From positions 212,136 to 276,135 of the forward strand of contig JABHDY010000003.1 of assembly GCA_018676855.1 (NCBI GenBank): DNA of 64,000 bases, given 5' to 3'. Below are positions 2,988 through 59,042 of the stretch, piece by piece (the first letter of the stretch is position 1; every line of letters begins with the position of its first letter). The stretch is from Candidatus Woesearchaeota archaeon. GTDB taxonomy: Archaea; Nanobdellota; Nanobdellia; Woesearchaeales; GW2011-AR9. Position numbers and translations under genes: made by a program. The notes beneath the pieces were generated by a model. It was not told where the DNA came from. It worked only from the letters and a program-made list of their open reading frames with translations, and made no database searches.

Positions 2988-2999
2988 TCTTCCATTAAT

Positions 3000-5332: not shown

Positions 5333-5467
5333 GATATTTCTTAAGATAATGAGTTATATAATAATTATGGTTTATAAATATCATAAAAACAAGCACAAAC
5401 CAAAAATAGTCACTCTTGAGTAAAAAATAAGAGAAATGTTTATATATTCCATTAAAAAAAATATCAT

Positions 5468-6658
5468 ATGGTTTTGAAAAACACAATCGCATCACTTATT
5501 TTTGCTGGTTCTCTTGCGCTTGCAGGTTCAACCGTTGCTCAGTCACAGAAACCAATTTCTTTTTCACCACAATCTTGTAAATCTACTTTAGAAACTCTTG
5601 TAAAATCTGGAATCACGGCAGGATTGCAGCACGATTCTCTCCTAACTGTAGGAGTTATACCACAGAAAGCACATATTGTTTCTCATATAACTGGAGGAAA
5701 TGATGTTGTAACAACTTGTGCAGATCAAAAACCAAAATATGCAACTATCGATAATGCTGTTGAAATGTATGTAGTTGTTGAAGCGTTACAATTTGGAAAA
5801 AAAGTGTATTTTACGGATGCACCATGTATAAACGTAAAAGGAAAAAGAAAAAGAGACATTGTTAAACCATGGCCATCAGAAGAAAAACCAGAAGTAAAAT
5901 GGTTTAAGGTTGAAGCATTAGAAAATGAGTATAGATATGTTTCAAAAAGGAATCCAATAACATACAAAGAAACGCAATGGCAGAACGGATGGAAAACCAG
6001 TGCTGACGTCCATCCAACATCGTTTGAAGATAAGTTTCCAATTGAACCAACAGGATTTGGCGTAATGAGATATAAAGTTGTAGTAGATATTAATGAAACG
6101 GAACTAGAAAGTCCAGGAAGTGAATCTATTAAACACGGAGCTATAAGTACAAAAGTTCATCAAGTTTCGTTCCGTCCAAATACGGGGTCGTGGGTAGATT
6201 ACCTTTTTGAGTTATTTAATACACCATACATATGGGGAAGTAACACTTCACAAATAGACGGCTTAATAGGATCTGACTGTGCAGACTTTGCAACGTACGG
6301 ATGGCGAAGAGCAGGGCACAAGAACCCATACACGTGGTCATATGGACTGCGAAAAAAACAACACACAGAAAGAATTGTGAAAATATCTTTTGATGTTGAT
6401 GATCAAGAAAGATTATTAGATTCTCAGAAAAAACTTATTCCATATGGAACGGATGAAAAAACTGTTACGGAAGGAGACATTATTTTTTTCCCACGACATA
6501 TTGCTGTTCTTTACAAAGACAATGGTAATGGTTATTTAGATTGTTCTGATCTTGTTCTTCACACATTATTTCATGAACCGACAATTGTTCCTCTTTGTGA
6601 AGCGTTTGGTATGCCTGACGAAGTTCTTCGGTGGAAAGAACTACTGCGCAGTAAGTAA
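5468..6658 (+). CDS. Secreted NlpC/P60-like cysteine peptidase/amidase
   Basis: N-terminal signal peptide; YIWGSNTSQIDGLIGSDCADFATYGWRRAG (Cys) and GDIIFFPRHIAVLY (His). Confidence 0.7.
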   Translation: MVLKNTIASLIFAGSLALAGSTVAQSQKPISFSPQSCKSTLETLVKSGITAGLQHDSLLTVGVIPQKAHIVSHITGGNDVVTTCADQKPKYATIDNAVEMYVVVEALQFGKKVYFTDAPCINVKGKRKRDIVKPWPSEEKPEVKWFKVEALENEYRYVSKRNPITYKETQWQNGWKTSADVHPTSFEDKFPIEPTGFGVMRYKVVVDINETELESPGSESIKHGAISTKVHQVSFRPNTGSWVDYLFELFNTPYIWGSNTSQIDGLIGSDCADFATYGWRRAGHKNPYTWSYGLRKKQHTERIVKISFDVDDQERLLDSQKKLIPYGTDEKTVTEGDIIFFPRHIAVLYKDNGNGYLDCSDLVLHTLFHEPTIVPLCEAFGMPDEVLRWKELLRSK

Positions 6659-6721
6659 TTCTGGAAAGATTTATAAATCAAAGTGCATTCACTCTTAAAA
6701 TCACATAAGGTTTTGATACGA

Positions 6722-7285
6722 ATGTCACAAAATATACGAAAAGTTATTTCAACAATTGGTCTTGCTGGTGTTCTTGCACTATCATCTGGGTATGATGTAC
6801 CTACAACATGTTTAACCAAAACAAAACTTCACCATTCTACACCACAACCTGATACAACATCTTCTGAGAGTACTGACCATGTAAAAAAAAGTAAGAAAAA
6901 AGATGAAAAAACTATTGAGGATTATCTTAATGTTCCAGAAAGTGTCCGTGAATTTAGAAAAAGATTAGACCATTCTCCGAATGCAGATGATTATGTTCTT
7001 GTCGAACTTGCACCAAGGATGGGGATATATATTCTAACACAAAAAGACGGATCAGACATTAAACATTTTGCAAAAACGTATTTACAATTCAATGACAAGA
7101 AATGCGATACCCTCATCCATAAACCGAAACTAGGATATGACGATTATATCACGTTTGCGTTTAATACGGTACATACACAAGTTCTTTATGGAAGAATAAA
7201 ATCATTAGCAGAAAGGATGGATCATGAGGGAGATAAAGTATTAACGCCGCTTAACATGATCAGTCCGTTACAAAAAAGAAAATAA
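6722..7285 (+). CDS. Secreted hypothetical protein
   Basis: Start moved from GTG 6683 to ATG 6722 (AAGG upstream; TATA at ~6671 is too close to 6683); signal peptide IRKVISTIGLAGVLALSSG. Confidence 0.6.
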   Translation: MSQNIRKVISTIGLAGVLALSSGYDVPTTCLTKTKLHHSTPQPDTTSSESTDHVKKSKKKDEKTIEDYLNVPESVREFRKRLDHSPNADDYVLVELAPRMGIYILTQKDGSDIKHFAKTYLQFNDKKCDTLIHKPKLGYDDYITFAFNTVHTQVLYGRIKSLAERMDHEGDKVLTPLNMISPLQKRK

Positions 7286-7300
7286 AGTAAAGGTAATTAC

Positions 7301-10102
7301 TTATTTTGCTACTGCCACAACATCATTAGGTTTTCTAAATTTCCATCTAAATATTGAAACTAGTTCTTTCTTGTCCTTAAAACCAATCCGTTCAGATTTA
7401 AGTTGTTCAATACTTTTTAATCCTCCATGTTCGGACGAAGTTTGATAAATATGAGCGTCTATAGCAGGCATTGAACCGGCAAATTGTCGAATATATTTCG
7501 TTCCGCTTCCAGGTGGAATCTCAAGAACTTCTTTCACACCAATTGCATGACCATTATACAACAAAACATCGCCTGGTTGGATATCATCATACTCATCAAC
7601 AGAGAGAATATCAATTTGATCATCCCACACGCCACCTTTTCCACGTTCAATTCGTTTTGTCGCTAATTCATATGAACGTGTATTAAGATCATGCATCCAA
7701 TCTTCTACAAATATTTGTGGTTGTTCTGTATAATCACTTAAACATTTTGGCTTTGAACCGTAACATATGTCTTGACCTGTTTCTAATGCATGTTGATATG
7801 CCATCGCAAACTGTACGTCAATACATTGCTGATCGCCATTGATGAAATCTAACTGGAGCCTGTCAGTGTTTGAAATAAAAATGTCTGGGATATCAAGTTC
7901 TTCTCCACTAACAGTCTGGCCTGCACGTAATCGTAACACTTCATCTGTCCATTGAAAAATGTCAGTATTTTTTATAACTGGAAATCCCTCGACTCGTTCT
8001 TGATAACTTACAAACGAGTCACCATCTTCTGAACTTACAATTTGGCCCCATATACCAGACTTATGCTCACCAATATTCCCCACAAGACGATGATTAATAT
8101 CATCAAGATCATTCTGTTTAAATTCAAGATCGTCACGTTTTGGCTTGAATTCAGAATATTCTGGCATTTGTTCTAGAGACTTAATTTGTTCATCTACTTT
8201 TTTTATCTGTGATTCGAACTGTTCTACATCTCTAAAAGTGGATTTCTTTTCGGCATCTGTCCCATGCTGTTCTGCCCGACGCCATAATTGTAAAGCTTTT
8301 TCAAGTTCACCTTGCAAGTTATTAAGATCTTTCTCTAATGGTTCAAGTTTCCTTATGATTCTTCGTATTGCTGGCTTACTTTTAAGTTCTTCTTTATAGT
8401 CGTCTAAAAACACCATTACAGAAGCTCGTTCTTGTAACAATCCTTCTCTCTCTTCTGAAGTAAGTTCAAGATGATATTCGCCATCTACATTTAAGTCGTA
8501 TATTTTTGTTTCGCCTAAATCAGCTTTGTAATTGAAACGCATATCTGACGAAACTAATTCTTCAGAAGCAAATGTGTCAGCAGGGGAAATCAAGACATCT
8601 TCACCATCTGCTCGAAAAAGATATTTACCATTTGTTACAACACCTTCTCCAGACATTGTTACTTCAAGTGCAAGGGGCCGTCGTTGCGGCGACATTTTAA
8701 CGGCATCTATTGTTCCTCCTTTAGGTTCAAATTCTAACTGACTTTTTCTCTCTCGTGTTATCCATCCTTCATAGGAAAGTGTAAATTCTGGAAAAATTGG
8801 ATTTCCATCTTCCGCATTTGACGAGAAACCATCTCCACCTAACCAAATATGTTCATCTCCATAAATAAAATAATTACCATCTGGAATCATTCCAGGAATA
8901 ACAGAAATATATTCTTTTTCCCTCTGCTCTTTATAACGTAAATGAACGCCTTCACTACTGATAATGGTTGGCACATACGATTCTGTTATGGTACGTAATT
9001 TTGTTGATTCTGTTGTAATTTGTGGAACAATCTGTTTCAGTTCTTCTGTTATTTCTGCAATTCTTTCTGTTGTACCACTCTGTTTTGTTAATTTTCGTAA
9101 TTCTGTTTCAAGTTCTTTTTGACGTGATTTGAGTTCAGACACAATACTAAACTGATCTTTCCATTCCTGTTCAAACTCATCTGCTTGAGGAATCTTTGCC
9201 AATGCTTCTTGTTCATTAAAATCAATCTCGTCCAATTCAGCACTTTCAGCATATAATAATTGTACTGTTTTCCCTTTCTTTGTCTTATGTGTAAATCCTT
9301 TTACCGTTACTTCAGAACCACTTCCAACAAGAACTGGACGACCTTTTTCAAATGTTAACCTTCCTTTATGCAACATATCTCCATCAGGAAGAGACACAGA
9401 ATTTCCATAAATCATAATATCAGTATCAAAATCTACGCCAACAACATTTGCTTTAACAAGTTTTATTGTGTTAGTATCTTTTACAAATTCAAACGACGTA
9501 TCTTCATCAAAATGAAGACCGCCAAAACTTTCCATAATTCCCTTCATTTTTCCATTACCAAGAATAAACTTCCCATTTTGAATCATTTGACCAGCAAATT
9601 CTCCATCATCAAGCGTGAATTTTCCTTGAGAAAAACCAAGTGTACCAGAGAATGGCCATTCTCTTTTATCCCTATCAATGATAACAATATTTCCATCACC
9701 ATCAATTTGTAAACTTTCTTCAGTATTAGAAAAATCATAAATATTTACTTCTTCACCGCCGGCACCAACAAGAGTTCCAATAGAATTGTAGTTAAAAACT
9801 GAAGATGGCGCTGTAGAATCTATAGAGATTGTTATCCCTAAAGAATACATGAATCGTTCAAATGCGTCAGGAGCAGACATGATATTGAGAGAATTTGAAA
9901 AGTAATCGTATGCAATTTCATAATTTCCTCCAGAAAAATCTTGCATGTCTGAAACATAAGATGCTTGATTTTCTGGAGTAAAAAGAATAAAATCTTCTGG
10001 AGGAACAATTGGAACATGATTTTGTGCAATAACTAAAGATGTACTTAATACAATGATTACAAGTACCAAAACCATATTTATTTTTGTCAGTTTCATTTTC
10101 AT
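7301..10102 (-). CDS. Large secreted coiled-coil protein with C-terminal NlpC/P60-like domain
   Basis: Signal peptide INMVLVLVIIVLSTSLVIAQ; coiled-coil segments; C-terminal DQQCIDVQFAMAYQHAL and DIQPGDVLLYNGHAIGVKEV. Confidence 0.65.
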   Translation of the reverse strand: MKMKLTKINMVLVLVIIVLSTSLVIAQNHVPIVPPEDFILFTPENQASYVSDMQDFSGGNYEIAYDYFSNSLNIMSAPDAFERFMYSLGITISIDSTAPSSVFNYNSIGTLVGAGGEEVNIYDFSNTEESLQIDGDGNIVIIDRDKREWPFSGTLGFSQGKFTLDDGEFAGQMIQNGKFILGNGKMKGIMESFGGLHFDEDTSFEFVKDTNTIKLVKANVVGVDFDTDIMIYGNSVSLPDGDMLHKGRLTFEKGRPVLVGSGSEVTVKGFTHKTKKGKTVQLLYAESAELDEIDFNEQEALAKIPQADEFEQEWKDQFSIVSELKSRQKELETELRKLTKQSGTTERIAEITEELKQIVPQITTESTKLRTITESYVPTIISSEGVHLRYKEQREKEYISVIPGMIPDGNYFIYGDEHIWLGGDGFSSNAEDGNPIFPEFTLSYEGWITRERKSQLEFEPKGGTIDAVKMSPQRRPLALEVTMSGEGVVTNGKYLFRADGEDVLISPADTFASEELVSSDMRFNYKADLGETKIYDLNVDGEYHLELTSEEREGLLQERASVMVFLDDYKEELKSKPAIRRIIRKLEPLEKDLNNLQGELEKALQLWRRAEQHGTDAEKKSTFRDVEQFESQIKKVDEQIKSLEQMPEYSEFKPKRDDLEFKQNDLDDINHRLVGNIGEHKSGIWGQIVSSEDGDSFVSYQERVEGFPVIKNTDIFQWTDEVLRLRAGQTVSGEELDIPDIFISNTDRLQLDFINGDQQCIDVQFAMAYQHALETGQDICYGSKPKCLSDYTEQPQIFVEDWMHDLNTRSYELATKRIERGKGGVWDDQIDILSVDEYDDIQPGDVLLYNGHAIGVKEVLEIPPGSGTKYIRQFAGSMPAIDAHIYQTSSEHGGLKSIEQLKSERIGFKDKKELVSIFRWKFRKPNDVVAVAK

Positions 10103-38757: not shown

Positions 38758-39273
38758 ATGATAATTTGGATAACTGGCATGTCAGCATCGGGAAAAACTG
38801 CAATAGCAAACGAATTATACCCATTACTTAAAAACAAACATAAACATACAATTCTTCTTGACGGCGACGTTTTTAGGGATATGCATAAAAATGATGTTGA
38901 CCATTCAATGGAAGGACGAAAAAAAAACGGTGACAGAATTTGTCAGATGTGTAAGTTCTTAGACAAACAAGAAATTAACGTTATTTGTGCGTCCCTTGCT
39001 CCGTTTCACGAGATTAGAGAATGGAACAAAGCTAATTATAATAAATATTTTGAAGTTTTTTTAGATGTACCACTTAACGTTCTTGTACAACGAGATCCTA
39101 AAGGATTGTACAAAATGGCACTTAATGGAGAAATGAAAAATATGGTTGGAATAGATTTACCATTTCCACCACCACGAAATCCAGATTTAGTAATTAATAA
39201 TATTGGTGATAGGACGCCAAAATCTATTGCAGAAGAAATATTTTCTACTGTCGAACCTAATTTAGAAAACTAA
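38758..39273 (+). CDS. Adenylylsulfate (APS) kinase-like protein
   Basis: IIWITGMSASGKTAIA, LLDGDVFRD, NVICASLAPFHEIREWNK, DVPLNVLVQRDPKGLYKMALNGEMKNMVGID. Confidence 0.85.
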   Translation: MIIWITGMSASGKTAIANELYPLLKNKHKHTILLDGDVFRDMHKNDVDHSMEGRKKNGDRICQMCKFLDKQEINVICASLAPFHEIREWNKANYNKYFEVFLDVPLNVLVQRDPKGLYKMALNGEMKNMVGIDLPFPPPRNPDLVINNIGDRTPKSIAEEIFSTVEPNLEN

Positions 39274-40283
39274 CCATAAATATGTTTAATTCTTTTCTCA
39301 TACTCTTCTACAAGATCTTCCATGATTGAAATACATTCTGGAGATGCTTTTGACCGAATGTCTTGTTCTTTCTTCTCTCTATCTTCAGGTTTGATAATTC
39401 GTGGGATTCTCCCCTTTGTCAATGCTTTGCGTAATGATCCTGTTCTTGTTCGTCCAATAAAATTTTCCATTTTAACAACGTCTGGTTCAGGATTCGTTGC
39501 AAATGTATCAAATCCAATAAATAACACTTGTTTCTTCTGTTCATCTGAAAGACTCTCATAACCTTCCCACATTCTTTGTAATCGTACAGCACACATTTTA
39601 ATAACCTTATCAGTTGGAGATTTACATGCCAGGTATTCTTCTTCCCAGCCGTAACAGTACCATGGAACAAGTTTTTTTCCGTGAAGAATGTTTAATGAAA
39701 ATATTCGTGGATCGTCGGCTTCTCTTTTTCCATATCCTCTTCGACAGTTGCCAAAAATTGAATCGATTGGATGCCGTAACATTTCTATGATACGTAAACT
39801 TTTACCGAACGCGTCAAAGTAAATACTATTAATGCCAAGTATGTCATGTGTTTGAACTTGAAATATTGGTTTTTCTTTTAGAATTTTTTCAACAACAACG
39901 TCTCCCTCAGGAGCAAATAATCGTTTGAGGTATTTGAAAGGTTTTATTTGGTTAAACACACCAGAGTTGTCACTTTTTCTAAAATTGATACTTCGAGATA
40001 TCATTGATTCGTACAACTTTGTTTCCATTTCTAAACGAAGGCAGGCAACTGCTGCATCTCGTGTAATTTTTTTTAGTTTGTATAACCGTGGTATTCTATC
40101 AAAATTAGTTTCTATCCGGTGTAGTTCAACATTTTCAAGACTTGTTAAAATGGGACTTAACATCGTTTTTCCAGTCCGCGTAATACCATCTATTAACACA
40201 ACGGGTTGTGTGTAAAAATTCTGTCTGTAGAGTTTTACTCGTTTTGTATCTGGTTCTTTTGATGTTGTTTTCGATATTGTCAT
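39270..40283 (-). CDS. Sulfotransferase-like protein
   Basis: P-loop LIDGITRTGKTML; EMLRHPIDSIFGN; related to 53086..54081. Confidence 0.65.
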   Translation of the reverse strand: MTISKTTSKEPDTKRVKLYRQNFYTQPVVLIDGITRTGKTMLSPILTSLENVELHRIETNFDRIPRLYKLKKITRDAAVACLRLEMETKLYESMISRSINFRKSDNSGVFNQIKPFKYLKRLFAPEGDVVVEKILKEKPIFQVQTHDILGINSIYFDAFGKSLRIIEMLRHPIDSIFGNCRRGYGKREADDPRIFSLNILHGKKLVPWYCYGWEEEYLACKSPTDKVIKMCAVRLQRMWEGYESLSDEQKKQVLFIGFDTFATNPEPDVVKMENFIGRTRTGSLRKALTKGRIPRIIKPEDREKKEQDIRSKASPECISIMEDLVEEYEKRIKHIYG

Positions 40284-45004: not shown

Positions 45005-45792
45005 TGTATACCTCCAACTTTCTTTGCCCATGTCGTTAGATGTTGAGGGAACCCCGTCTTTGTTACATATCCCATTGATAACAAAAGACGTTCAACTCCA
45101 ATAAATGTTATAGCACCATCAACCTTATGATAAGAAGCAATTGCAACATGAACATTGCTATCTGAAAGGTTACGTGAACATCCTTTAAGTGCTTCAATCT
45201 CTGCACCTTCAATATCCATTTTAATAAAATTAACATGTTGAATTTTTAATTCTTTCAACCGACTATCAAGTTTGATAACGGACGTTAGAGGAAGGTGTGG
45301 TTCTTCTTCTGGATCAAGAATAAATGATGATTCGCCACCCTGCATCTTGAATCGTAATTGTGTATTGGTACTCCATAATCCCTCAGAAAAAACATCTACG
45401 TTTGTAATACAATTCAGTGCAATAAGGTCAAGCAATTCTTCACGACCATTTGTATCTGGTTCAAACGCTAACACTTGGCCAGTATCACCAACAAACTTTG
45501 ATGCTATCAATGAAAACACACCGCCAGATGCACCAGCATCAATAACAACATCATTTTTTTGTGGCCGATGATATTTCAAGTAACCCTTAAGAACCGTTGC
45601 AAGACTTCCACACGGATTTTTTCTAAATTTGAGAGTAAAGTTTGGAAATGTAACATAGTACATATTCTCTTTAAAAGAAATGGTGTACACATTTTTTCCA
45701 AAAATATTCTGATACACACATCGTACTTTATGTTTAAAAACTGAGTCTGGAACAAGTTGTCCGTACAATTTAGCAAGCCTGAATTTTGTCAT
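45001..45792 (-). CDS. FkbM family methyltransferase
   Basis: DVVIDAGASGGVFSLIASKFVGDTGQVLAFEPD; VNFIKMDIEGAEIEALKGC. Confidence 0.9.
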   Translation of the reverse strand: MTKFRLAKLYGQLVPDSVFKHKVRCVYQNIFGKNVYTISFKENMYYVTFPNFTLKFRKNPCGSLATVLKGYLKYHRPQKNDVVIDAGASGGVFSLIASKFVGDTGQVLAFEPDTNGREELLDLIALNCITNVDVFSEGLWSTNTQLRFKMQGGESSFILDPEEEPHLPLTSVIKLDSRLKELKIQHVNFIKMDIEGAEIEALKGCSRNLSDSNVHVAIASYHKVDGAITFIGVERLLLSMGYVTKTGFPQHLTTWAKKVGGIQ

Positions 45793-47888
45793 GTTAACCT
45801 CTTAAAACCAGAATGGCACACAGGACCTTTGAGATATTTATCAGGATTACCTTCACTGATAGCCTTTGAAATAAAACTAAATGTATCATCAACTGCACGA
45901 AGATATTGAGTTATATGGTCTTCTTTATGCGCATAGGATGCGAAGTACGCAGTCGTTGCCAAGAATCCTTTTTCCAACATTAATTGTGTAAACAATGTTT
46001 TAAGAACAAGAGGATTATCATACTCAAACGAAAAACTGCTTAATGGATAAATTCCTGAAACTTTAATTTTTATACCATACTTCTCTGCTAACATTGCCCA
46101 CCCTTCCTGTACTTGTTTTCCATTTTGTTTAAGATGAGACGCAACATTATTTTCTTCTAATTTCTTGATTGTAGCAAGTGCTGCAGTAAACCCTATCCGT
46201 TCTGTCCAAAATGAACTGCTAATGAATGACCCTTGTGCAGCTTCCATAACGTTCCTTGTTCCAATGATAGCAGCGATTGGATACCCATTTCCCATGGCCT
46301 TTGCAAACACTGCAACGTCAGGATTGATTCCCAAATTTAAATGTGCACCACCTAACGCTAACCTAAACCCAGAAGACACTTCATCAAATACTAACACAAT
46401 ACTTTGTTCTTTGGTAACTGCACGAATTTTTTCCAAAAATCCGGGCGCAGGATAACGGCCACGTAACGGCTCCATAACAACTGCAGCAATATTTCCTTGA
46501 TGTTTCTGAACTAATTGTAAAAATTCGTCAATATCATTATAATGAAACGGAACGGCTGTTCCCTGTAATGCACGAGGAACTCCCCTGGGTTCTAATCCTG
46601 GAAGAAGATGCCCATCTAATGCAGCATCGTCCGCTAAATTTGTTGCAATGTACCAATCATGCCATCCATGATATCCGCAGAAAAGTATAAGGTCCTTGCC
46701 CGTTTTTGCACGTGCTATCCGTACCGCAACGGCAACCGCTTCGCCACCCGTTCGTGCAAACCGTACATTGTCTGCCCAAGGGTGAAGTTGTACCATCTTT
46801 TCTGCAAGTTCAACTTCTTCTGGACAGTTTAATGTCGTCTTTGTAGAATTGGTAATTGCGTTTGTAACGGCAGTATCAATATCATTATCTGCATATCCTA
46901 AAATTGACGTACCAATGCCCATGTAACACAAATCTAAATATTCATTATCATCTAAATCCCAAACGGAACATCCCTTTGCTTTCTTGTAATATGCTGGCCA
47001 CAAGTCCGGCAAATGTAATTCTGGTCTCTTTGATAATAATTGTGTTCCGCCAGGAATGAGCCGTTTTGCTTTTTCATAGAGTTGTTGTGATTTTCCAAGA
47101 GGAATTTTTAGTGAAGGTACTTTTTCTTGCACAACCGTATCTTCCTGTAACGATTTAGCATAGCCTTCATTCATTGATAAGTGTGCATTAATTTTTAGTA
47201 AGTCAGGATTATCTTTTACTACACGTACAATATCATGTAATCGTGAATCTTGTGAAGTAATCTTTTTCAACAGTTCATTCAGAAGTTCTACATCTTCTTT
47301 CTCATCAACGGTTAATCGAATATGTGATACGTCTTCATGATGTTGAAGATTAGTATGTTTGAAAAGTTCTTTATTTTTCCATATATAGGGTGTTACATGT
47401 TCCCTCTCTGATGGTAGGGTTGCTTCATGCCATGCCTTTTCTAACGCAGAAAAAGTAAACATGTCAAAGTCCATCCCATCAGGAAATGATGGTGGATGTG
47501 CATTCGACCCATAATCAGCACTATCCCGTATAAACAATTCAATTGTTTTATCAATAATCTCAGGATCAATTAAAGGACAATCGCCCGTAATCCGTACAAT
47601 GATATCCGCATTAAAACGTTTTGCACACTGATAATACCTATCAAGAACGTCATTTTCATTTCCAACAAAGTAATTGAATCCTTTCTTTTTTACTTCTTCA
47701 ATAAGAGAAAGGTTATTCAGATGATCGCTCGTAGCAAGAACAACATCGTCAACACGTTGCGCTTTCCTGACACGTTCAAGAACATGATGTACTAACGGTT
47801 TGCCTGCAAGTAAACTTAACATTTTTCCAGGAAATCGTGTGGAACCCATCCGAGCTTGAATAATTGCAATTACTTTTTGTTTTGCCAT
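45789..47888 (-). CDS. Fusion: SpsF/PseF-like cytidylyltransferase + class III (glutamate-1-semialdehyde) aminotransferase
   Basis: VIAIIQARMGSTRFPGKMLSLLAGKPLVHHVLERV; then IPGGTQLLSKRPELH...WDLDDNEYLDLCYMGIG...LVFDEVSSGFRLALGGAHLNLGINPDVAVFAKAMGNGYPIAAI. Confidence 0.93.
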   Translation of the reverse strand: MAKQKVIAIIQARMGSTRFPGKMLSLLAGKPLVHHVLERVRKAQRVDDVVLATSDHLNNLSLIEEVKKKGFNYFVGNENDVLDRYYQCAKRFNADIIVRITGDCPLIDPEIIDKTIELFIRDSADYGSNAHPPSFPDGMDFDMFTFSALEKAWHEATLPSEREHVTPYIWKNKELFKHTNLQHHEDVSHIRLTVDEKEDVELLNELLKKITSQDSRLHDIVRVVKDNPDLLKINAHLSMNEGYAKSLQEDTVVQEKVPSLKIPLGKSQQLYEKAKRLIPGGTQLLSKRPELHLPDLWPAYYKKAKGCSVWDLDDNEYLDLCYMGIGTSILGYADNDIDTAVTNAITNSTKTTLNCPEEVELAEKMVQLHPWADNVRFARTGGEAVAVAVRIARAKTGKDLILFCGYHGWHDWYIATNLADDAALDGHLLPGLEPRGVPRALQGTAVPFHYNDIDEFLQLVQKHQGNIAAVVMEPLRGRYPAPGFLEKIRAVTKEQSIVLVFDEVSSGFRLALGGAHLNLGINPDVAVFAKAMGNGYPIAAIIGTRNVMEAAQGSFISSSFWTERIGFTAALATIKKLEENNVASHLKQNGKQVQEGWAMLAEKYGIKIKVSGIYPLSSFSFEYDNPLVLKTLFTQLMLEKGFLATTAYFASYAHKEDHITQYLRAVDDTFSFISKAISEGNPDKYLKGPVCHSGFKRLT

Positions 47889-47916: not shown

Positions 47917-50034
47917 TTATTTCTGTGGCCAATGTATTGGCAAGATAACTTTTTCATTATCTTCTTTCATTCCCTCTAAAATGCCATAGATGTTTTGTAT
48001 TCTTTCACTGTACTGTAAAGAACCCACATTTTCTTGAATATTTGCAAGACCATCAATTCCAAGAATAACTTTATCAATATGTTTGTTCAACATCGCAAAA
48101 TTAATACAGAATGACGATAAAGGAATGTTCGTTTCCTTTGCCAAGTTTTGAAGTTGTCGAACTTTATCCTTAACATGTACAAACTCACCAGTTAATTCGT
48201 CAGGGTTCTTAAACAATAATCCCTGTAAGAATACTGATCGAACATAAATCTCAATACCACGTTCTTTAAGTTTTGGTAACAAGTACGAAAACCGTTGATC
48301 AAAAATGCTAAATGGAAGTTGGATAATGTCAACATTAATATTATGCTCAAGAATATACTCAGCTTCGTGCGGATGATATAATGACAATCCAATTTTTTGT
48401 ATTTTCCCTTCACGCTTCAGTTTCTGTAATTCATCCCACATCTCAGGATGTTCTAAAAACTTATTAAAATGATGAATAAGATACCCATACACGTGCGAAG
48501 AATTCAATCGTACTAACGATTCAGTAAAATGTCGTTCAATTTCTTCATTGTGAAACTTTGAAATGACTTGTAATCCAGATTGTGGATTATTCTTAATATA
48601 TTCACCAATGACACCCTCGCTATCTTGATACCCATACGCAGTATCTAATACCGTAATACCCGAATCAAGAGCATACTGTAAAATCTGAAACACTTCTTCT
48701 TTGGGAATTTTACCACGTACATTATTAATACCATAATCATACCCAAACTGTGCCGTCCCTAACGCAATATTTGACGTTGTTGGAATTGAAAACGATTGTT
48801 CTTTTTGATGCATGTTTGGTACATTTTTTCTATAATGCGTAATAACTTTTGTTACTGCAGTAATAACATCTTCCACATCATTATCATCCATCTTAGGAAA
48901 TAATGGAATGGTAATAAGACCATTATACACTTTTTCAGTAATGGGAAAATCTCCCGGTTTTAATCCATAATTATGTTGATAATATGAATGAAGATGTATT
49001 GGAATATAATGAACATTAACGCCAATATTTTCTGCTTTTAACGCTTTAATTATTTGGTTTCTGTCAACCGTTAATAGAGTTTCATCAACATGAATTGTAT
49101 ACAAATGCCATGCACTTTGAATGTCTGGATGAACAGTTTGTACAGTAATTTCTGGAAATTGTGAAAAAGCTTCATTATATCTAGTAACAATCACTTCCCT
49201 TCTTTTCTGAAACAGGGGCAATTTTTTCAGTTGTGCAATGCCAAGTGCAGCTTGAAATTCTGTCATGTTATACCGATGACCAAGACGTTGCATGTCATAC
49301 ATCCAGTCAGCTTTTTTTCCGTACCGTTCCATAGCTTCTTTGGTAATACCATGTGTCCGATGCATCACACACAATTTTGCCAGTTCTTCATTATCCGTTG
49401 TAATGATACCACCTTCGGCCGTTGTCATATTTTTAACGGGATGAAAACTAAATATTGACAAATCGCCAATAGACCCAATTTTTTGATCTTTATACTTTGC
49501 TGATAAAGCATGTGCTGCATCTTCAATAATTTTAATGTCATAATCCTGTGCAATTTTTTGTATCTCATCCATATTGCATGGATTACCACCATAATGTACA
49601 GGAATGATTGCTTTTGTTCTAGGCGTTATTTTTTTTCTGATTTGATCTGGATCAATATTGTACGTTTTCGGATCTATATCTACAAGAACGGGAGTTGCTC
49701 CACAATAGACAATACAATTTGCTGTTGCTAAAAATGTTAAGGGTGTTGTAATAACTTCGTCACCAGGACCAATGTCAAGTGCACCGACACAACAGTGAAG
49801 GGCAGCAGTTCCAGAATTTACTGCAACTGCATATTTTGCTCCAACAAACGCTGCAATATCTTTTTCAAACTGTGTACATTTAGGGCCGGTCGTAAGCCAA
49901 TTAGAATCTAATACTGATAAGACTTCCCGTCGTTCTTCCTCACCTATCCACTGTGTTGCGTAGGGTAAAAAGTTTTCTCTGACAGGTTTCCCACCATCAA
50001 TTGCAAGTTGTATTTTTTGAGTATCTGTAGTCAT
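47917..50034 (-). CDS. Fusion: DegT/DnrJ/EryC1 aminotransferase (PseC-like) + aldo/keto reductase
   Basis: AVAVNSGTAALHCCVGALDIGPGDEVITTPLTFLATANCI...SIFSFHPVKNMTTAEGG; then NIALGTAQFGYDYGINN...LDTAYGYQDSEGVIGEY (AKR). ATG 50034 behind AGGTGAT. Confidence 0.93.
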   Translation of the reverse strand: MTTDTQKIQLAIDGGKPVRENFLPYATQWIGEEERREVLSVLDSNWLTTGPKCTQFEKDIAAFVGAKYAVAVNSGTAALHCCVGALDIGPGDEVITTPLTFLATANCIVYCGATPVLVDIDPKTYNIDPDQIRKKITPRTKAIIPVHYGGNPCNMDEIQKIAQDYDIKIIEDAAHALSAKYKDQKIGSIGDLSIFSFHPVKNMTTAEGGIITTDNEELAKLCVMHRTHGITKEAMERYGKKADWMYDMQRLGHRYNMTEFQAALGIAQLKKLPLFQKRREVIVTRYNEAFSQFPEITVQTVHPDIQSAWHLYTIHVDETLLTVDRNQIIKALKAENIGVNVHYIPIHLHSYYQHNYGLKPGDFPITEKVYNGLITIPLFPKMDDNDVEDVITAVTKVITHYRKNVPNMHQKEQSFSIPTTSNIALGTAQFGYDYGINNVRGKIPKEEVFQILQYALDSGITVLDTAYGYQDSEGVIGEYIKNNPQSGLQVISKFHNEEIERHFTESLVRLNSSHVYGYLIHHFNKFLEHPEMWDELQKLKREGKIQKIGLSLYHPHEAEYILEHNINVDIIQLPFSIFDQRFSYLLPKLKERGIEIYVRSVFLQGLLFKNPDELTGEFVHVKDKVRQLQNLAKETNIPLSSFCINFAMLNKHIDKVILGIDGLANIQENVGSLQYSERIQNIYGILEGMKEDNEKVILPIHWPQK

Positions 50035-50042
50035 AATGTTAA

Positions 50043-50492
50043 TCACCTATTTTTTGTATTCCATATTTCTTTTCCAAAGAAATCCCATGCGAACCGAAAG
50101 TCGTCACCTTTTGACTCTTCCAGTGAACTTGATGAGAAAAAAATGATTGTTGTATTATCTTCAAGAGCTTTAAAACCGTTAGCATACCCAGCAGGAATTT
50201 TAAGAATTGACGGTTTTGCACTGTGTAAAATATATGTTGTGGGAAGGCCAGTAAGCTGTCTGTTGTCCATTTTTGAACAAATTATTTTTACACAGCCCTG
50301 TGGAACAAAAACGTACTTTGTTTCTTTTTCATGGCCATGAAATGCTCGAACAACATTATTTGCCACATTTTTTACTTGATAAAACCGTTTTATACCGCTC
50401 GATATAAAGTCAAAATCGTTCACAAAAGAAACACTTCCCCTATCATCGTACGCAATGCCACCTTCAAATAATTGTATCTCGTCATGCATCAT
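50043..50492 (-). CDS. RmlC/WxcM-like cupin (sugar epimerase/isomerase family)
   Basis: DDRGSVSFVNDFD...IKRFYQVKN...RAFHGHEKETKYVFVPQGCVKI...IPAGYANGFKAL. Confidence 0.83.
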   Translation of the reverse strand: MMHDEIQLFEGGIAYDDRGSVSFVNDFDFISSGIKRFYQVKNVANNVVRAFHGHEKETKYVFVPQGCVKIICSKMDNRQLTGLPTTYILHSAKPSILKIPAGYANGFKALEDNTTIIFFSSSSLEESKGDDFRFAWDFFGKEIWNTKNR

Positions 50493-53085: not shown

Positions 53086-54081
53086 ATGGACGAAAAGAAA
53101 GTGTTAAACTTGTACCGGCCAGATCATTTCGGTAATGAGATTATTCTTGCTGATGGTACAGCAAGAGCAGGAAAGTCTAAACTTCACCAATTATTGTCAG
53201 GATTTGAAGGGGTAGAATTACCTTCCCTAGAATTACTGCCTGAGAGATTATCATTCTTTTACTATCACAACCTTATTGATAAGAAAGCTGCAATTGCATT
53301 GTTAAAAACAGCATTACAATTCCGTTTGTTTTATAACATGCAAGCACGAAACGTCAATTTTAAACCTGGCGATTATTCGGGCGTCTTCGGAAACGCCAAT
53401 TGGATAAAATATATCAAACGTCTTTTCCTTAAAGATTCGTCCGTTGCCATGGAAAATCTGCACAAGGAAAGAGCAATACTTCAATTGATGGTACATGATA
53501 CTCTTGGATATCCAAACTTATTCTTTGATGCGTACGGTGATAAAGTATACTGGTTAGAAATGGTATGTCATCCAATAGATTTAATCAATTCTAAGTATAG
53601 AAAGAAACATGATTTAAGGGAAGACAGTTCTTCTTCATACACGTTAACATTGAAAGAGGGAGAGAATATTGTTCCTTGGTGGCACATTTATGATAAAGAT
53701 GGAGAGTATTTGAAGTTGTCACACATGGACAGAGTTATCTGGTCAACATACCACCGTCTGAAACATATCATGGAAGAATATAATAAATTGTCTGATTCAC
53801 AAAAGAAACAAATATTATGGATTCCGCTTGAAAAAATGATGATCGATCCTTGGACGTATATTGCAAAGATTGAAAAGTTGATAAAGCGTAAACCTGCAAA
53901 ATATATGAAAAAGAATCTTAAGAGATATAATTTTCCTGATACGATGGAACGTATTCTAGAAAGTAGGAAGAAAAAAGAAGAGTTGATCAGAAGTAAAGCA
54001 TCGCCAAAATATATTGCTCTTATGGAAAAAATGGTTACAGAGTACGAAACAACTGATTGGCACGCACTGAATCCATTATAA
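53086..54081 (+). CDS. Sulfotransferase-like protein, paralog of 39270..40283
   Basis: ILADGTARAGKSKLHQLLSGFEGVELP...MVCHPIDLINSKYRKK...EELIRSKASPKYIALMEKMV; co-linear with the other copy. Confidence 0.65.
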   Translation: MDEKKVLNLYRPDHFGNEIILADGTARAGKSKLHQLLSGFEGVELPSLELLPERLSFFYYHNLIDKKAAIALLKTALQFRLFYNMQARNVNFKPGDYSGVFGNANWIKYIKRLFLKDSSVAMENLHKERAILQLMVHDTLGYPNLFFDAYGDKVYWLEMVCHPIDLINSKYRKKHDLREDSSSSYTLTLKEGENIVPWWHIYDKDGEYLKLSHMDRVIWSTYHRLKHIMEEYNKLSDSQKKQILWIPLEKMMIDPWTYIAKIEKLIKRKPAKYMKKNLKRYNFPDTMERILESRKKKEELIRSKASPKYIALMEKMVTEYETTDWHALNPL

Positions 54082-54210: not shown

Positions 54211-55566
54211 TTATTTCTTCATTGTATCTACTTGATATTTAAGATATTCTTTAACACTACGCGCTTCATACATATAATTAATTATCTCGTCAATCTCTTG
54301 ATCAATCTCTTGAATAAAACCTTCATTATGAGCAATCTCTTCCTGAACAGAAACATCTTCAATATAATGTTGAACATCAACAGGTGCGCCCTTTTCTAAC
54401 TTGTTTAATGGAAGGTCCATATCATCGATTTTACGGAAGGGAAAGAAATGTCTGGTTGTCCTTGGAGAAAAGATATTGCCCGTTAAACCACGTTCAACAA
54501 CTTCAGATTTTGAAATGTTCGTTTTATCAATTATTAAATGTCTGTGCATTAATCGTGTTCCTACCCGAATATTTTCATTATTATAATCAACGTACTGAAC
54601 GGGAACGGTTTTATATCCATGCATTAAAAAGAAAATGTATCGATGACTACCATCTAATACAATTCCAGTATTTTTATCAACAAGAAGTGGTGCTTTAACA
54701 AATCCATCTTTTAATAGAAGGTTGTTTAAATTGTTAAGATGGTTCGGAAATACTTTTTCTAACGGTTTAATTGTGTTTATAGAAACAATTTCGTACTTGC
54801 TAGATGTTGTTTCTAGTTGTTTAATTGGTTTATCTGTAAATAATTCATTTGCTTTGTGTAAATCGTTATGATCATCAATTTCAAACCATTTCATACCATG
54901 AACGGGACATACAAACAACGGTGTTGAACCGTTGATATGTTCTGCAATGACAAGATCGTAGTACACATTTGTGTTTCCTTTCTGTACTTCAATGTCTAAC
55001 CATTGAGAGAATTGTTTACCAAATTCTGCCGTTATCTTTAAAATTCCTACAGATTTATGATAATTGTCATTATATTCTGTGAGTGGCTCTCTGACAATTT
55101 GTATTTTTTGTACATGATGTCCGTCTCCCGTTGTTAACATACACCCTTCTTTAAATAAACTAAACCTGTCACCTGCCCAATACGAAAGGGTATGATTCGT
55201 ATTCATGATTCGTGTAAGAACGTTTTTGTCAAAGAACGAATCTCCTTCAATTAAGAGTGAACCTTGTTCTAAATGATCTCGTACTAACCATAACGAATAC
55301 ATGTTATTCGTTGTTGCATACTCTTTACTTTCAATATATGTGATGTTCATATTTTTGTATGATGTTCCAATGGTGTTTTGTATTACATTTGCAAGATGAC
55401 CAACAACAAGGACAACATCTTTGATACCTTCATCTGCTAAGTGATTAAGTGTATTGATAAGAATCGGTGTACCGTTAACTTCAACCAAACATTTTGGGAT
55501 AGTATCCGTAATTGGTTTTAACCTATTACCAAGTCCCGCAACTAAAAGTATTGCTTTCTGTATCAT
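54211..55566 (-). CDS. Fusion: LicC/RmlA-like nucleotidyltransferase + ParB/SerK-like (free-serine kinase-type) domain
   Basis: AILLVAGLGNRLKPITDTIPKCLVEVNGTPILINTL...; then VSINTIKPLEKVFPNHLNNLNNLLLKDGFVKAPLLVDKNTGIVLDGSHRYIFFLMHGYKTVPVQYVDYNN. Confidence 0.8.
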   Translation of the reverse strand: MIQKAILLVAGLGNRLKPITDTIPKCLVEVNGTPILINTLNHLADEGIKDVVLVVGHLANVIQNTIGTSYKNMNITYIESKEYATTNNMYSLWLVRDHLEQGSLLIEGDSFFDKNVLTRIMNTNHTLSYWAGDRFSLFKEGCMLTTGDGHHVQKIQIVREPLTEYNDNYHKSVGILKITAEFGKQFSQWLDIEVQKGNTNVYYDLVIAEHINGSTPLFVCPVHGMKWFEIDDHNDLHKANELFTDKPIKQLETTSSKYEIVSINTIKPLEKVFPNHLNNLNNLLLKDGFVKAPLLVDKNTGIVLDGSHRYIFFLMHGYKTVPVQYVDYNNENIRVGTRLMHRHLIIDKTNISKSEVVERGLTGNIFSPRTTRHFFPFRKIDDMDLPLNKLEKGAPVDVQHYIEDVSVQEEIAHNEGFIQEIDQEIDEIINYMYEARSVKEYLKYQVDTMKK

Positions 55567-56513
55567 TGTAATAACTCTTTTAATCTTTCATAATTCTCAT
55601 TATACGCAACCCTGTAATAAGTTCCGTCCAAGCCCGTTTTATTATCACACGACTTAACATTAAAATGCGTTATTGGTTTGGTTGATTGTACCATGACAAA
55701 ATTAGCTTTCGTTGGAAAGACTTTGAGGTATGGAATCTGTTTTAGTAAATCAACCATTTTACGTGTTCCTTGTATGATACGTATTCGTGATTGTTCATAC
55801 TCTTCTTTATGATCTAACAGGAGGTCAATAAGAGCTTCCGTCACAGAATTAATGTTCCAAATAGGAATCTTTTTGACAAAATCGTTTATCAGATCTTCAT
55901 CTTCAGATGCAATATATCCTAACCTAATACCACAAATCCCATAATTTTTTCCTAAGCTTTTGATAAGTATGACGTTTGTTCCTTTTGGTAGTTCTGGAAT
56001 AGTTTCCGCGACAAAATCTATAAAACTAATATCAATTGCAAATTTAACATGTGGAAATTCGTTCACTAATTGTTGAATGTCATCTCTGTAAAGTCCAGTA
56101 GGATTATTAGGATTACAGAAACAAACAGTATCTACTTCATGCTGTTGTATTGCTTGTCTTATTTCATCTGTTGTTGCATTGTATGGTATAGGAACATGGT
56201 TTGATATTTCCCATTCGTTAAAATTAGGAACAGTTACTAACGCTTTTGTTGAATAGTTTTGTAATAGAATTCTAATAGCTTCACAACTACCGTTAACAGT
56301 TAGAAGTGGTATGGTAACATTTTCTAATCGTTTTACTTTTTCAGAGATAACTTTTTGGTTAGATGGATAGTATCTTATTAGATGAAGTAAATCATTTTTT
56401 AATTGGTTCATAATTTCGTCTGTTGGAAAGTACGGATTAATCATAAAATAGAAATTGTCTGAACTATCTTTCATTCTTGTTACGAGTTGTTTTTGCATAA
56501 GATTACCTACCAT
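55563..56513 (-). CDS. PLP-dependent aminotransferase/decarboxylase, CobD/HisC-like
   Basis: YYPSNQ, VCFCNPNNPTGLY, IKSLGKNYGICGIRLGYIAS (Schiff-base Lys), TYYRVAYN; ATGA overlap with the nucleotidyltransferase gene. Confidence 0.85.
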   Translation of the reverse strand: MVGNLMQKQLVTRMKDSSDNFYFMINPYFPTDEIMNQLKNDLLHLIRYYPSNQKVISEKVKRLENVTIPLLTVNGSCEAIRILLQNYSTKALVTVPNFNEWEISNHVPIPYNATTDEIRQAIQQHEVDTVCFCNPNNPTGLYRDDIQQLVNEFPHVKFAIDISFIDFVAETIPELPKGTNVILIKSLGKNYGICGIRLGYIASEDEDLINDFVKKIPIWNINSVTEALIDLLLDHKEEYEQSRIRIIQGTRKMVDLLKQIPYLKVFPTKANFVMVQSTKPITHFNVKSCDNKTGLDGTYYRVAYNENYERLKELLQ

Positions 56514-56613
56514 TGAATCATAATTGTTCGTATATAAAGGTTATTGACTTTGGTTCTATAGAAATATATATAAATCGATTAATCTTACTTAACTCATAAA
56601 TGAGGTGTTTATT

Positions 56614-57444
56614 ATGAAAAAAGTAATTATTTGTGGAGTTTTACTTGTTGCAGTTCTGTTTGTTATAGGTTGTGGAACAGGTAAGGCTATAGACTTTGGA
56701 GAAGATATGAAAGGACCATCTGAAGAAGATGTTATGGAAATGAAGAGTTATTTCCAATGTGGAAGTGTTTGTTCAGAGTTAGATAATAAAGAAATGTTTA
56801 TAGAATGTGTTGATGTTTGTGAAACTGAATTTGGTCATGATGATGAAATGGAAGGACCAAGAATGGAAGGACCAAGGGAAGAAGATACGTCAACAGATCC
56901 AAGTCAATTTTGTGATGAAAAAACACCATATTATGATGCTAAACTTAATGAATGTTACGGAGATCAAGAAACGTGCACAGATAGTGATGGTGGATTAATG
57001 AGAGAATTAAAAGGAGTTGTCAATGACGACCCAGCGTTAACTGATGAATGTGAAGGAACAACTGATGTAAGAGAATGGTACTGTGATGAGAATGGTTTGC
57101 CCCAAGATATGAGTCTTGCATGTGACAATGGTTGTGTAGATGGTGCGTGTTTAGTAGCAGCTCAATTAGAATGTAACTCTGTTTACCAAGATGAAGATCA
57201 ATTTTACATAGGAGAAACGTTATGGCAGTACAAAGGAGCAGATAACCGGTTTAAGACTGACGGAATGGTTAAGTTCAAAAATTGGAACACAGGAGAAACT
57301 TTAGATCAGAGATTTTGGAGTTATTCTGATTTCAGCAACTTTAGTATAGCTATTTCGCCAGGTGTTTTTCCTTTTGAGGCCTTTATGAACGCCTCACCAA
57401 CAGATGTAGATGATTGGGCGATCATGTATACAACTTGTAATTAA
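56614..57444 (+). CDS. Cys-rich secreted lipoprotein
   Basis: Lipobox VLFVIGCGTG; CTDSDGG...EWYCDENGLPQDMSLACDNGCVDGAC; start behind GAGGTG. Confidence 0.72.
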   Translation: MKKVIICGVLLVAVLFVIGCGTGKAIDFGEDMKGPSEEDVMEMKSYFQCGSVCSELDNKEMFIECVDVCETEFGHDDEMEGPRMEGPREEDTSTDPSQFCDEKTPYYDAKLNECYGDQETCTDSDGGLMRELKGVVNDDPALTDECEGTTDVREWYCDENGLPQDMSLACDNGCVDGACLVAAQLECNSVYQDEDQFYIGETLWQYKGADNRFKTDGMVKFKNWNTGETLDQRFWSYSDFSNFSIAISPGVFPFEAFMNASPTDVDDWAIMYTTCN

Positions 57445-57470
57445 TTTCTTTCTTTTCTTTTTTTCTTTTC
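57445..57470 (+). terminator. Pyrimidine-tract terminator
   Basis: TTTCTTTCTTTTCTTTTTTTCTTTTC directly after the stop codon. Confidence 0.5.
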
Positions 57471-57506
57471 ATAATCTTTAAATAGCACACATTTCTCAAA
57501 ACCAGC

Positions 57507-58295
57507 ATGGTTGAGTCTATCAAAGAATTACGCGTCATATGTCAGAAGAAAGCACAATTGTATAACAAGAAAGGAGAAAAGAATACGTCCGAACCAATAC
57601 AAGAATACATTTATGATAGGTTTCTAAGAGCAGTGTCAATATACATTACAAAAATAGTATTATACACACCCTTAACAAGTAACCAAGTGTCAGTCATATC
57701 AATGATCGTTGGATTGTTTGCTGGTTTCTTATTCAGTTTTGCTCATCCATTGTACTGGATAGCAGGTTTTGTAGGATTACAATTCTTTCATTTCTTAGAT
57801 GCAGTTGATGGTGAAGTTGCACGGTACAGAAAAGTTGCCAGTCCAATTGGCAAATATTTTGATTTGTTAGCACATGGTATTGTCATTGCAGCGTTTTATA
57901 CGGGGATGACGTTTGGAATATTTAAAGCCACACAACACAAACTAGTTTTCATAATAGGATTCGTTTGTTTAGCATCATTTTTGTTAACGTCATTATCCGT
58001 TGCACTCAGAAAGTTTTTATTTTATCAATATGCAATTGTTGAAAAGAAATATGATTTAATGAATAAATCGTCTAAAACTACGAACGTTCATTCTTTAAAG
58101 TATTTTGTACGAAGATTGTTTGGCTTTGACGGTTTTGCGTTCATTGTCCTATTCGTTACAATACTTGACATGATACTTACAAACACAATAAGTTTCAGAT
58201 ACCTATTCTTAATAATATCTGCTATAGCAGGACCTTTACTATTTATCAAAAGTATGTGGGACACAAGTAAGATGAAAAAACTATTTCTTTCGTAA
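57507..58295 (+). CDS. CDP-alcohol phosphatidyltransferase family protein
   Basis: DAVDGEVARYRKVASPIGKYFDLLAH matches D-x2-DG-x2-AR-x8-G-x3-D-x3-(D), with His at the last position; multiple TM helices. Confidence 0.88.
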   Translation: MVESIKELRVICQKKAQLYNKKGEKNTSEPIQEYIYDRFLRAVSIYITKIVLYTPLTSNQVSVISMIVGLFAGFLFSFAHPLYWIAGFVGLQFFHFLDAVDGEVARYRKVASPIGKYFDLLAHGIVIAAFYTGMTFGIFKATQHKLVFIIGFVCLASFLLTSLSVALRKFLFYQYAIVEKKYDLMNKSSKTTNVHSLKYFVRRLFGFDGFAFIVLFVTILDMILTNTISFRYLFLIISAIAGPLLFIKSMWDTSKMKKLFLS

Positions 58296-59042
58296 CAATC
58301 CCAGATAATAATATTTTGGTAAGAACACATCTAAAAAGCTAACAAGCCAATAGGGAAGTTTAAACTTAAGTAACATTGGCAGCCTCAACACATTTATCAA
58401 CTTTTTAGATTCAACAAGTGTAAAGTCTGGAAATATTGTTTTAATAATTCTATCGTCAAACGTTGGCAATTTACGTTTTTTCCGTACACTACCATACACT
58501 AACCTATTACAAAAATTGATAAATGGTGAATTATAAAAATCAAAAAATAGTACGTACCCGCCACGTTTAACCTTTGAAGAAATGTTCTGTGCAATTTGTA
58601 CAACATCATCATGCGGAATAGCATTAAACAAATAGTTGCATAACACAACATCAAAATGGTTATCTTTGAACGGCATGTCGTACACATCTCCCTGGACAAA
58701 CGTAATGCCAGGATTGTACTGCTTTGCAACGGTAATCGAATCCTGAATAAAGTCCATACCGTACACTTCTAAAGAAGATTTCTTTACATATGCTAAACAG
58801 TTAGTAAAAAAGCCGTGATGGCAGCCAACATCTAAAATGGCAGATTTTTGTAATTGAACCTTATGCTTATTTAACAATTGTATAAATTCCTGTGCTCTTC
58901 GATAATCCCACCATAAACCGTGATGATTACGTTGTGAGAATTTGTTTGATACTGTTTGATCAAAATTGTCAGCACCAGAATTGTATCCTGTAGGATCATG
59001 AATGTACCGTTCTTTTCTCTTCTGACGTACAGAAACCATCAT
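58281..59042 (-). CDS. SAM-dependent methyltransferase
   Basis: AILDVGCHHGFFTNCLAYVKKSSLEVYGMDF...FVQGDVYDMPFKDNHFDVVLCNYLFNAI. Confidence 0.88.
   Translation of the reverse strand: MMVSVRQKRKERYIHDPTGYNSGADNFDQTVSNKFSQRNHHGLWWDYRRAQEFIQLLNKHKVQLQKSAILDVGCHHGFFTNCLAYVKKSSLEVYGMDFIQDSITVAKQYNPGITFVQGDVYDMPFKDNHFDVVLCNYLFNAIPHDDVVQIAQNISSKVKRGGYVLFFDFYNSPFINFCNRLVYGSVRKKRKLPTFDDRIIKTIFPDFTLVESKKLINVLRLPMLLKFKLPYWLVSFLDVFLPKYYYLGLLRKK

Follow-up and report, generated by a model that had tools for sequence, protein, structure and literature searches.

Can a DPANN archaeon assemble a cytidine diphosphate (CDP)-activated headgroup from serine with the genes of one short locus? The question is raised by a cluster at positions 54211-58295 of a 64,000-nucleotide stretch (hereafter, the window) from a Candidatus Woesearchaeota archaeon (GenBank assembly GCA_018676855.1, contig JABHDY010000003.1, positions 212,136 to 276,135 of the forward strand). 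The initial annotation recognized three genes here and read them as a route from serine to CDP-ethanolamine or a related compound. All three open reading frames (ORFs) are indeed present. The first encodes a 451-residue fusion of a LicC-like cytidylyltransferase, a SerK-like serine kinase domain and a helical tail, predicted to be bifunctional (54211-55566, minus strand). The second encodes a 316-residue CobD-like, fold-type I pyridoxal phosphate (PLP) enzyme, predicted to decarboxylate phosphoserine or CDP-serine (55563-56513, minus strand); its stop codon shares 4 bp (ATGA) with the start of the fusion, the overlap that had been claimed. The third, about 1 kb away as described, encodes a 262-residue CDP-alcohol phosphotransferase predicted to transfer the phospho-headgroup (57507-58295, plus strand). 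A further gene, overlooked in the annotation, encodes a class I S-adenosylmethionine methyltransferase that is a candidate for headgroup methylation (58281-59042, minus strand). We put the probability that these genes specify a CDP-activated headgroup pathway starting from serine at roughly 0.6. Of the initial proposal, the fold, the co-occurrence of the genes and the separation of the PLP enzyme from HisC in a tree have held up, and the domain identities, the retained catalytic residues and the conserved neighborhood are the part that sequence comparison and modeling support; the individual activities, the order of the steps, the acceptor and the methylation are what we infer.

The proposed pathway would begin with the phosphorylation of free L-serine to O-phosphoserine by the SerK-like domain, and the fused LicC-like domain would use CTP to link CMP to the phosphate. 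The PLP enzyme would remove the carboxylate, either from phosphoserine first, in the manner of Cj1436, or from CDP-serine later, in the manner of FrbH, to give CDP-ethanolamine. The membrane CDP-alcohol phosphotransferase would then move phosphoethanolamine onto a lipid or a lipid-linked glycan of the surrounding surface-glycan cluster, which in the window includes genes for NeuB, a cytidylyltransferase, DegT, a flippase and STT3; the acceptor is probably a product of this cluster, or a lipid. The adjacent methyltransferase would probably N-methylate the aminoethyl group.

The genes of this predicted pathway travel together. Among 99 relatives searched, the fusion is found in four genomes from two families, all DPANN: the window genome; Woesearchaeota CG10_36_11 (G001), of the same genus, in which it is interrupted by a run of N; a member of the same family (G034), in which it is split by contig ends; and Nanoarchaeota RS_12_52 (G063), from another family of the order, in which it is unbroken and 61% identical. 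The last of these rules out an assembly artefact as the source of the fusion. The triad of fusion, PLP enzyme and phosphotransferase is complete in each of the four, as the co-occurrence check proposed with the annotation had anticipated, with the PLP gene immediately preceding the fusion and the phosphotransferase gene divergent and within ~2.5 kb. The PLP enzymes are 68-89% and the phosphotransferases 63-85% identical to the window proteins. A TATA-like box lies ~25 nt before the start codon upstream of both transcripts, a spacing that would suit archaeal genes with short leaders. In G063 and G034 the fusion has a TIM-barrel-like gene at its side (L021 11031-11792 and L023 8711-9286; mutual score 138 bits), which is not found in the window.

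The kinase domain also occurs, with the helical tail and at 52-56% identity, on two contigs of bacterial metagenome-assembled genomes (MAGs; L040 and L041), for which mis-binning is possible. Here it is without a LicC domain and is instead fused to (L040) or followed by (the next gene in L041) a HIGH-type cytidylyltransferase of a non-homologous fold (PF01467, CTP_transf_like). It is difficult to see why the pairing should survive this swap of the cytidylyltransferase fold if the two activities were not sequential. Both contigs carry a gene of the Asp/Glu racemase family, directly followed in L040 by a CDP-alcohol phosphotransferase gene. The racemase suggests an amino acid substrate, and these bacteria may make a D-serine tag. 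Searches of the two bacterial phyla (247 and 399 genomes) found no second copy of the bacterial locus.

The N-terminal part of the fusion (residues 1-245; 54832-55566, minus strand) is a LicC-like cytidylyltransferase by sequence and is predicted to use CTP. Residues 4-116 match NTP_transferase (PF00483; E = 1.7e-10), and the solved structure that matches best along the full length is that of the phosphocholine cytidylyltransferase LicC (1jyk; residues 4-243, E = 1.5e-20), followed by the 2-aminoethylphosphonate (AEP) cytidylyltransferase PntC (6pd1). The catalytic residues of PntC, R15 and K25, have identical counterparts, R15 and K25, in the fusion. The signature GXG(T/S)RX4-8PK takes the form GLGNR(X8)PK, with N replacing T/S at one position, and the motif NNMYSL follows the NNxYSL pattern of LicC.

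The remainder of the fusion comprises a SerK-like domain of the ParB fold (residues 252-390; 54397-54813, minus strand) and the helical tail (residues 391-451; 54214-54396, minus strand). The SerK profile NF053625 matches residues 252-338 and 351-389 (47.3 bits, E = 1.4e-12) and SerK structures match likewise, so that the fusion reported in the annotation is confirmed on both sides. An AlphaFold2 model of residues 252-451, built with 34 homologues, has a mean predicted local distance difference test (pLDDT) score of 91 and a predicted template modeling (pTM) score of 0.84. When this model was compared with the PDB by Foldseek, which is the structural check that the annotation had called for, the nine best matches were all free serine kinases, namely T. 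kodakarensis SerK, a P. furiosus relative and SbnI (E-values of 1e-7 to 7e-6, probability 1.00, query TM-scores (TMq) of 0.55-0.59). ParB, Noc and sulfiredoxin appear among the matches only from ~1e-2, and an identity as a chromosome-segregation ParB was rejected, as the E-values of the structural matches to kinases are better by about four orders of magnitude. SerK residue E30, which is mutated in PDB 5x0j (E30Q) and 5x0e (E30A), aligns with E270 of the fusion. E270, D305, G306, H308, R309 and H373 are invariant in the 34 homologues, and the catalytic glutamate, the DGxHR motif (D305-G-S-H308-R309) and the TRH motif (with R372-H373) are kept. The model thus points to a domain of the serine-kinase type, a predicted kinase. 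The helical tail is kept in all headgroup-type SerK proteins found and is absent from compact standalone SerK-like proteins. A scan of viral contigs for the kinase domain gave no match.

Among protein families, CobD (TIGR01140, 133.6 bits) fits the PLP enzyme best, ahead of HisC (TIGR01141, 103.5 bits). Its candidate catalytic residues K189 (in SLGKNYG) and R301 (in YYRVAY) align with the Schiff-base lysine and the carboxylate-binding arginine of CobD. The closest solved structure, 6oux, is a "threonine phosphate decarboxylase-like enzyme", a product name identical to that of SMUL_1544 of Sulfurospirillum; from this name, we take the two to be the same protein. The norcobamide enzyme SMUL_1544 has been proposed to make ethanolamine phosphate (PMC4585668). 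In a tree of 16 rows, the triad PLP enzymes join nucleotidyltransferase-linked, CobD-like PLP enzymes (support 100/99), neighbors that are not biochemically characterized, and stand apart from CobD and HisC. These partners are fused or adjacent to cytidylyltransferases in Erwinia plasmid pERA53 (with a CDP-alcohol phosphotransferase), in Pseudonocardia, and in Sinorhizobium and Bradyrhizobium (with phosphoenolpyruvate (PEP) mutase and a CDP-alcohol phosphotransferase); one Spirosoma protein of the group has no cytidylyltransferase neighbors. Given this grouping, a better label than CobD is nucleotidyltransferase-linked, CobD-like PLP enzyme, probably a decarboxylase.

At the Erwinia rhapontici pERA53 (L109 6179-8657) and Pseudonocardia (L114 4200-6044) loci, a LicC-like nucleotidyltransferase and a CobD-like PLP enzyme form one protein; in Erwinia a CDP-alcohol phosphotransferase gene comes next, and no PEP mutase is annotated within ~7 kb. 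Their motifs (NNIYSL and NNIFSM) are of the type seen in the window, and they may represent a phosphoserine-fed bacterial version.

The CDP-alcohol phosphotransferase was identified by a PF01066 match of 33.2 bits, above the gathering score of 22 bits. The neighboring methyltransferase has close kin beside the triad in G001 (484 bits) and G034 (237 bits) and in a phosphonate cluster of another DPANN genome, G027 (219 bits), with the next match among the loci compared at 31 bits. In G027 it sits directly between a cytidylyltransferase/AEP-transaminase fusion and a CDP-alcohol phosphotransferase. The methyltransferase probably belongs to the module; it does not adjoin the triad in G063, and so it may be optional. 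Since the aminoethyl group is common to aminoethylphosphonate and ethanolamine phosphate, N-methylation would be the simplest shared function.

Several findings weigh against a serine-to-headgroup pathway. SerK residues ~102-202 are absent from the fusion domain, in which the positions equivalent to SerK 101 and 203 are bridged by ~13 residues, and the 47-bit score is far below the NF053625 equivalog cut-off of 380 bits; hence, the domain is not a SerK equivalog. The PLP enzyme likewise falls below the CobD equivalog cut-off (133.6 versus 290.55 bits), for which reason we call it CobD-like and not CobD, and its structure prediction, from 3 sequences, reached a pLDDT of 57, too poor for use. 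CDP-alcohol phosphotransferases carry the signature D1xxD2GxxAR...GxxxD3xxxD4, with four aspartates (PMC10156783). D1-D3 are present here, and D4 is histidine in all four triad homologues (DxxDGxxAR...GxxxDxxxH), so that catalysis or acceptor may differ; the genome's three other PF01066 proteins retain D4, and at the level of sequence the histidine marks a subclass of these enzymes. The fusion was found in four archaeal genomes, and the kinase domain in two bacterial MAGs besides. With no further tail-bearing member in 382 genomes of the phylum, the system is rare. Finally, the bacterial loci have a racemase in the place of the decarboxylase, and decarboxylation is therefore not universal to the kinase-cytidylyltransferase pair.

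The missing SerK region bears on the competing explanation that survives best, though we hold it to be unlikely: that the ParB/SerK-like domain is a regulatory module that senses CTP or ATP and has no kinase activity, while the cytidylyltransferase uses phosphoethanolamine that the PLP enzyme makes from phosphoserine of the ordinary pathway. One SerK-like protein from an archaeon was found to bind CTP but not ATP (PMC12704722), on which basis the domain could be a sensor or the phosphate donor an unusual nucleotide. The 2-hydroxyacid dehydrogenase relatives in these genomes could include SerA, making a phosphoserine source of this type possible. However, most of the compact standalone SerK-like relatives (135-185 residues) also lack the central region, and a CysK-like gene is present in five loci with SerK-like matches, directly adjoining in L053, L063 and L079. 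SerK supplies phosphoserine for cysteine (PMC5120207), and a neighbor of this kind would be expected for an enzyme that makes phosphoserine. As compact relatives, some near CysK-like genes, share the loss, it is by itself no argument against kinase function. A sensor also fits poorly with the invariance of the catalytic glutamate and motif residues, with top structural matches that are kinases only, and with retention of the domain where the cytidylyltransferase fold has been replaced. The compact SerK-like proteins are widespread (loci L042-L086), occurring in Poseidoniales, other archaea and bacteria, several of them near CysK-like genes; reports from Thermococcales and Desulfurococcales may greatly understate how common SerK-type kinases are.

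Another improbable alternative concerns the PLP enzyme, which might be an aminotransferase and yield some other amino-alcohol phosphate, such as serinol phosphate made from dihydroxyacetone phosphate, with CDP-serinol as the donor; alternatively, phosphoserine would stay the transferred group. In favor, both activities occur within the fold family, and the window enzyme scores under the CobD equivalog cut-off. A C. jejuni capsule cluster combines the two chemistries, as Cj1436 decarboxylates L-serine phosphate and Cj1437 makes serinol phosphate from dihydroxyacetone phosphate (PMC11800397). Yet the window enzyme is nearer in sequence to CobD and 6oux than to HisC, the tree places it with the nucleotidyltransferase-linked CobD-like enzymes, and a serine kinase would be purposeless if serinol phosphate came from dihydroxyacetone phosphate. 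Cj1436 (shown) and SMUL_1544 (proposed) are PLP enzymes that give ethanolamine phosphate, the former in a surface glycan cluster, as would be the case in our preferred reading; unlike the arrangement predicted here, their product is amidated or put into a cobamide and is not CMP-coupled for a CDP-alcohol phosphotransferase.

Less probable again is that the substrate is another hydroxy amino acid such as threonine, leading to CDP-1-amino-2-propanol or CDP-threonine. CobD acts on threonine phosphate, and in the type A flagellar glycan pathway of C. difficile (CD0241-CD0244) a hydroxy amino acid receives a phosphate, is linked to CMP through a LicC-like enzyme (with CDP-L-threonine as the proposed product), and is transferred to a sugar and N-methylated (PMC10714395); phosphothreonine is the proposed substrate of that LicC-like step. 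In pathway logic alone, this is the system closest to the one predicted here, sharing the phosphorylated hydroxy amino acid, the LicC-like coupling and the N-methylation. It differs in having a phosphoserine-phosphatase-like CD0241 for the phosphorylation and a TagF-like CD0244 as transferase, no decarboxylase and separate genes, and in being bacterial. Against threonine, SerK is specific for free serine and leaves threonine unphosphorylated (PMC5120207), and the best relative of the PLP enzyme is of the SMUL_1544 type, a proposed maker of ethanolamine phosphate.

It is very improbable that the locus is a phosphonate (Pnt) headgroup cluster, though the same classes of cytidylyltransferase, CobD-like PLP enzyme and CDP-alcohol phosphotransferase stand beside PEP mutase in Pnt loci on Bradyrhizobium and Sinorhizobium plasmids. 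The Pnt module resembles the serine pathway proposed here in its CMP-activated headgroup, in the fusion of a cytidylyltransferase to the producer of the phosphorus compound, and in the same exchange of folds, as the cytidylyltransferase fused to PEP mutase has either a PF12804/PF00483-like fold or the unrelated PF01467 fold (PMC6697681). In Pnt systems, however, PEP mutase creates a C-P bond, whereas here a predicted serine kinase would create a phosphate ester. The window enzyme has the NNxYSL motif like LicC and not the TGSxYSL of the PEP-mutase-linked enzymes of G027 and Bradyrhizobium. The phosphonate pathway was rejected because no PEP mutase was found in the six genomes with a SerK-type headgroup domain (G000, G001, G034, G063, G416 and G417) by a search that finds the one in G027, the positive control. 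The G027 locus itself (L025; G027:C3:78000-97900) is a DPANN phosphonate-headgroup cluster with a PEP mutase-nucleotidyltransferase, a thiamine pyrophosphate decarboxylase-like gene, the methyltransferase and two CDP-alcohol phosphotransferase genes; its 1164-residue fusion joins Fe-ADH, CTP_transf_like, LicC-like and AEP-transaminase domains (TIGR03301 above cut-off).

The idea that an aminotransferase of the histidine pathway lies next to a sugar nucleotidyltransferase unrelated to it has a negligible chance despite the HisC profile score of 103 bits, and a HisC identity was rejected, since the CobD profile scores higher, the tree sets the enzyme apart from HisC, its linkage with the fusion and the phosphotransferase is conserved, and a family search finds no HisD in the genome (the assembly is 92.8% complete, and genome-wide absences in this archaeon were judged by family searches). 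PF00155 matches in the genome are limited to the PLP enzyme and a DegT-fold protein.

Within the serine pathway, decarboxylation before and after cytidylylation appear about equally probable. A CDP-serine intermediate is favored by the fusion of kinase and cytidylyltransferase and by the bacterial loci that are without a decarboxylase; phosphoethanolamine first is favored by the NNxYSL motif shared with LicC, a phosphocholine enzyme, and by the relation to 6oux. Phosphatidylserine decarboxylase (PSD) provides the usual archaeal ethanolamine-headgroup step, and a family search found no match to it in the genome. Tentatively, and as something we regard as possible rather than likely, CDP-serine may be the shared activated intermediate of self-contained kinase-cytidylyltransferase units built with two unrelated cytidylyltransferase folds. 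Such units would feed decarboxylation and possible N-methylation in DPANN archaea, toward CDP-ethanolamine or choline-type donors, and racemization in bacteria, toward a phospho-D-serine tag; the archaeal branch would then be a Kennedy-like route with neither PSD nor ethanolamine kinase.

Each of these reactions has precedent, and the arrangement is a variant of cytidylyl-activated surface tagging. SerK and SbnI (PMC5120207; PDB 5x0b, 5ujd) share the fold, the catalytic glutamate and the DGxHR and TRH motifs with the kinase domain; the window protein differs from them in the missing central ~100 residues, the cytidylyltransferase fusion, the extra helical tail and a headgroup instead of a cysteine or siderophore context. 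FrbH, which decarboxylates a CMP-linked amino acid in FR-900098 biosynthesis (PMC8976061), likewise combines a cytidylyltransferase with a PLP decarboxylase acting on such a substrate, but that substrate is a phosphonate, and FrbH is a single fused protein of an antibiotic pathway. LicC and the Kennedy pathway (CEPT1-type CDP-choline/CDP-ethanolamine transfer) follow the same logic of cytidylyltransferase plus CDP-alcohol phosphotransferase and depend on choline or ethanolamine uptake and a choline/ethanolamine kinase, whereas here the cluster itself would make the headgroup, starting from serine. The open-access literature, which excludes most subscription journals, yielded no account of SerK fused to a cytidylyltransferase and none of a cluster dedicated to turning serine into CDP-ethanolamine.

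If our reading is correct, ~4 kb of a DPANN genome holds a complete route from serine to a CDP-headgroup, with the first committed steps, those of the serine kinase and the cytidylyltransferase, on one polypeptide. Reduced archaea of this kind would then need neither PSD nor ethanolamine from a host to make zwitterionic surface tags resembling ethanolamine or choline, and SerK-type kinases would gain a use outside cysteine and siderophore synthesis. The reading predicts a CDP-serine or CDP-ethanolamine metabolite and phosphoethanolamine on DPANN glycans or lipids.

Additional features were noted in relatives and in the window. In L027 (G065; 5167-9848), a LicC-like nucleotidyltransferase gene overlaps a 445-residue gene that is glycerate-kinase-like by eye, with a CDP-alcohol phosphotransferase ~3 kb off, possibly another set of kinase, cytidylyltransferase and phosphotransferase. 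Between the PLP and phosphotransferase genes of the window lies a Cys-rich, lipoprotein-like ORF (56605-57444, plus strand), which is not conserved in the other loci and is probably outside the pathway. The glycan cluster includes a fusion of a DegT aminotransferase with an aldo/keto reductase (47917-50046, minus strand) and one of a CMP-sugar-type cytidylyltransferase with a class III aminotransferase (45789-47888, minus strand). An adenosine 5'-phosphosulfate (APS) kinase gene (38758-39273, plus strand) adjoins one (39270-40283, minus strand) of two genes for paralogous ~330-residue P-loop proteins, the other lying at 53086-54081 (plus strand). These paralogues are sulfotransferase-like by eye (GTARAGKSKLHQ / GITRTGKTMLSP), with no Pfam match for 53086-54081, and homologues occur beside the triad in G001 and on the G034 contig that holds the C-terminal half of the fusion; glycan sulfation by the APS kinase and the P-loop paralogues is possible. 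An STT3/AglB protein (PF02516; 11264-14836, plus strand) carries a C-terminal PpiC-type parvulin isomerase domain (PF13616/PF00639, residues 1092-1189). Two adjoining tRNA genes of 126 and 98 nt are located at 2862-3097 (plus strand), the first long enough to suggest an intron.

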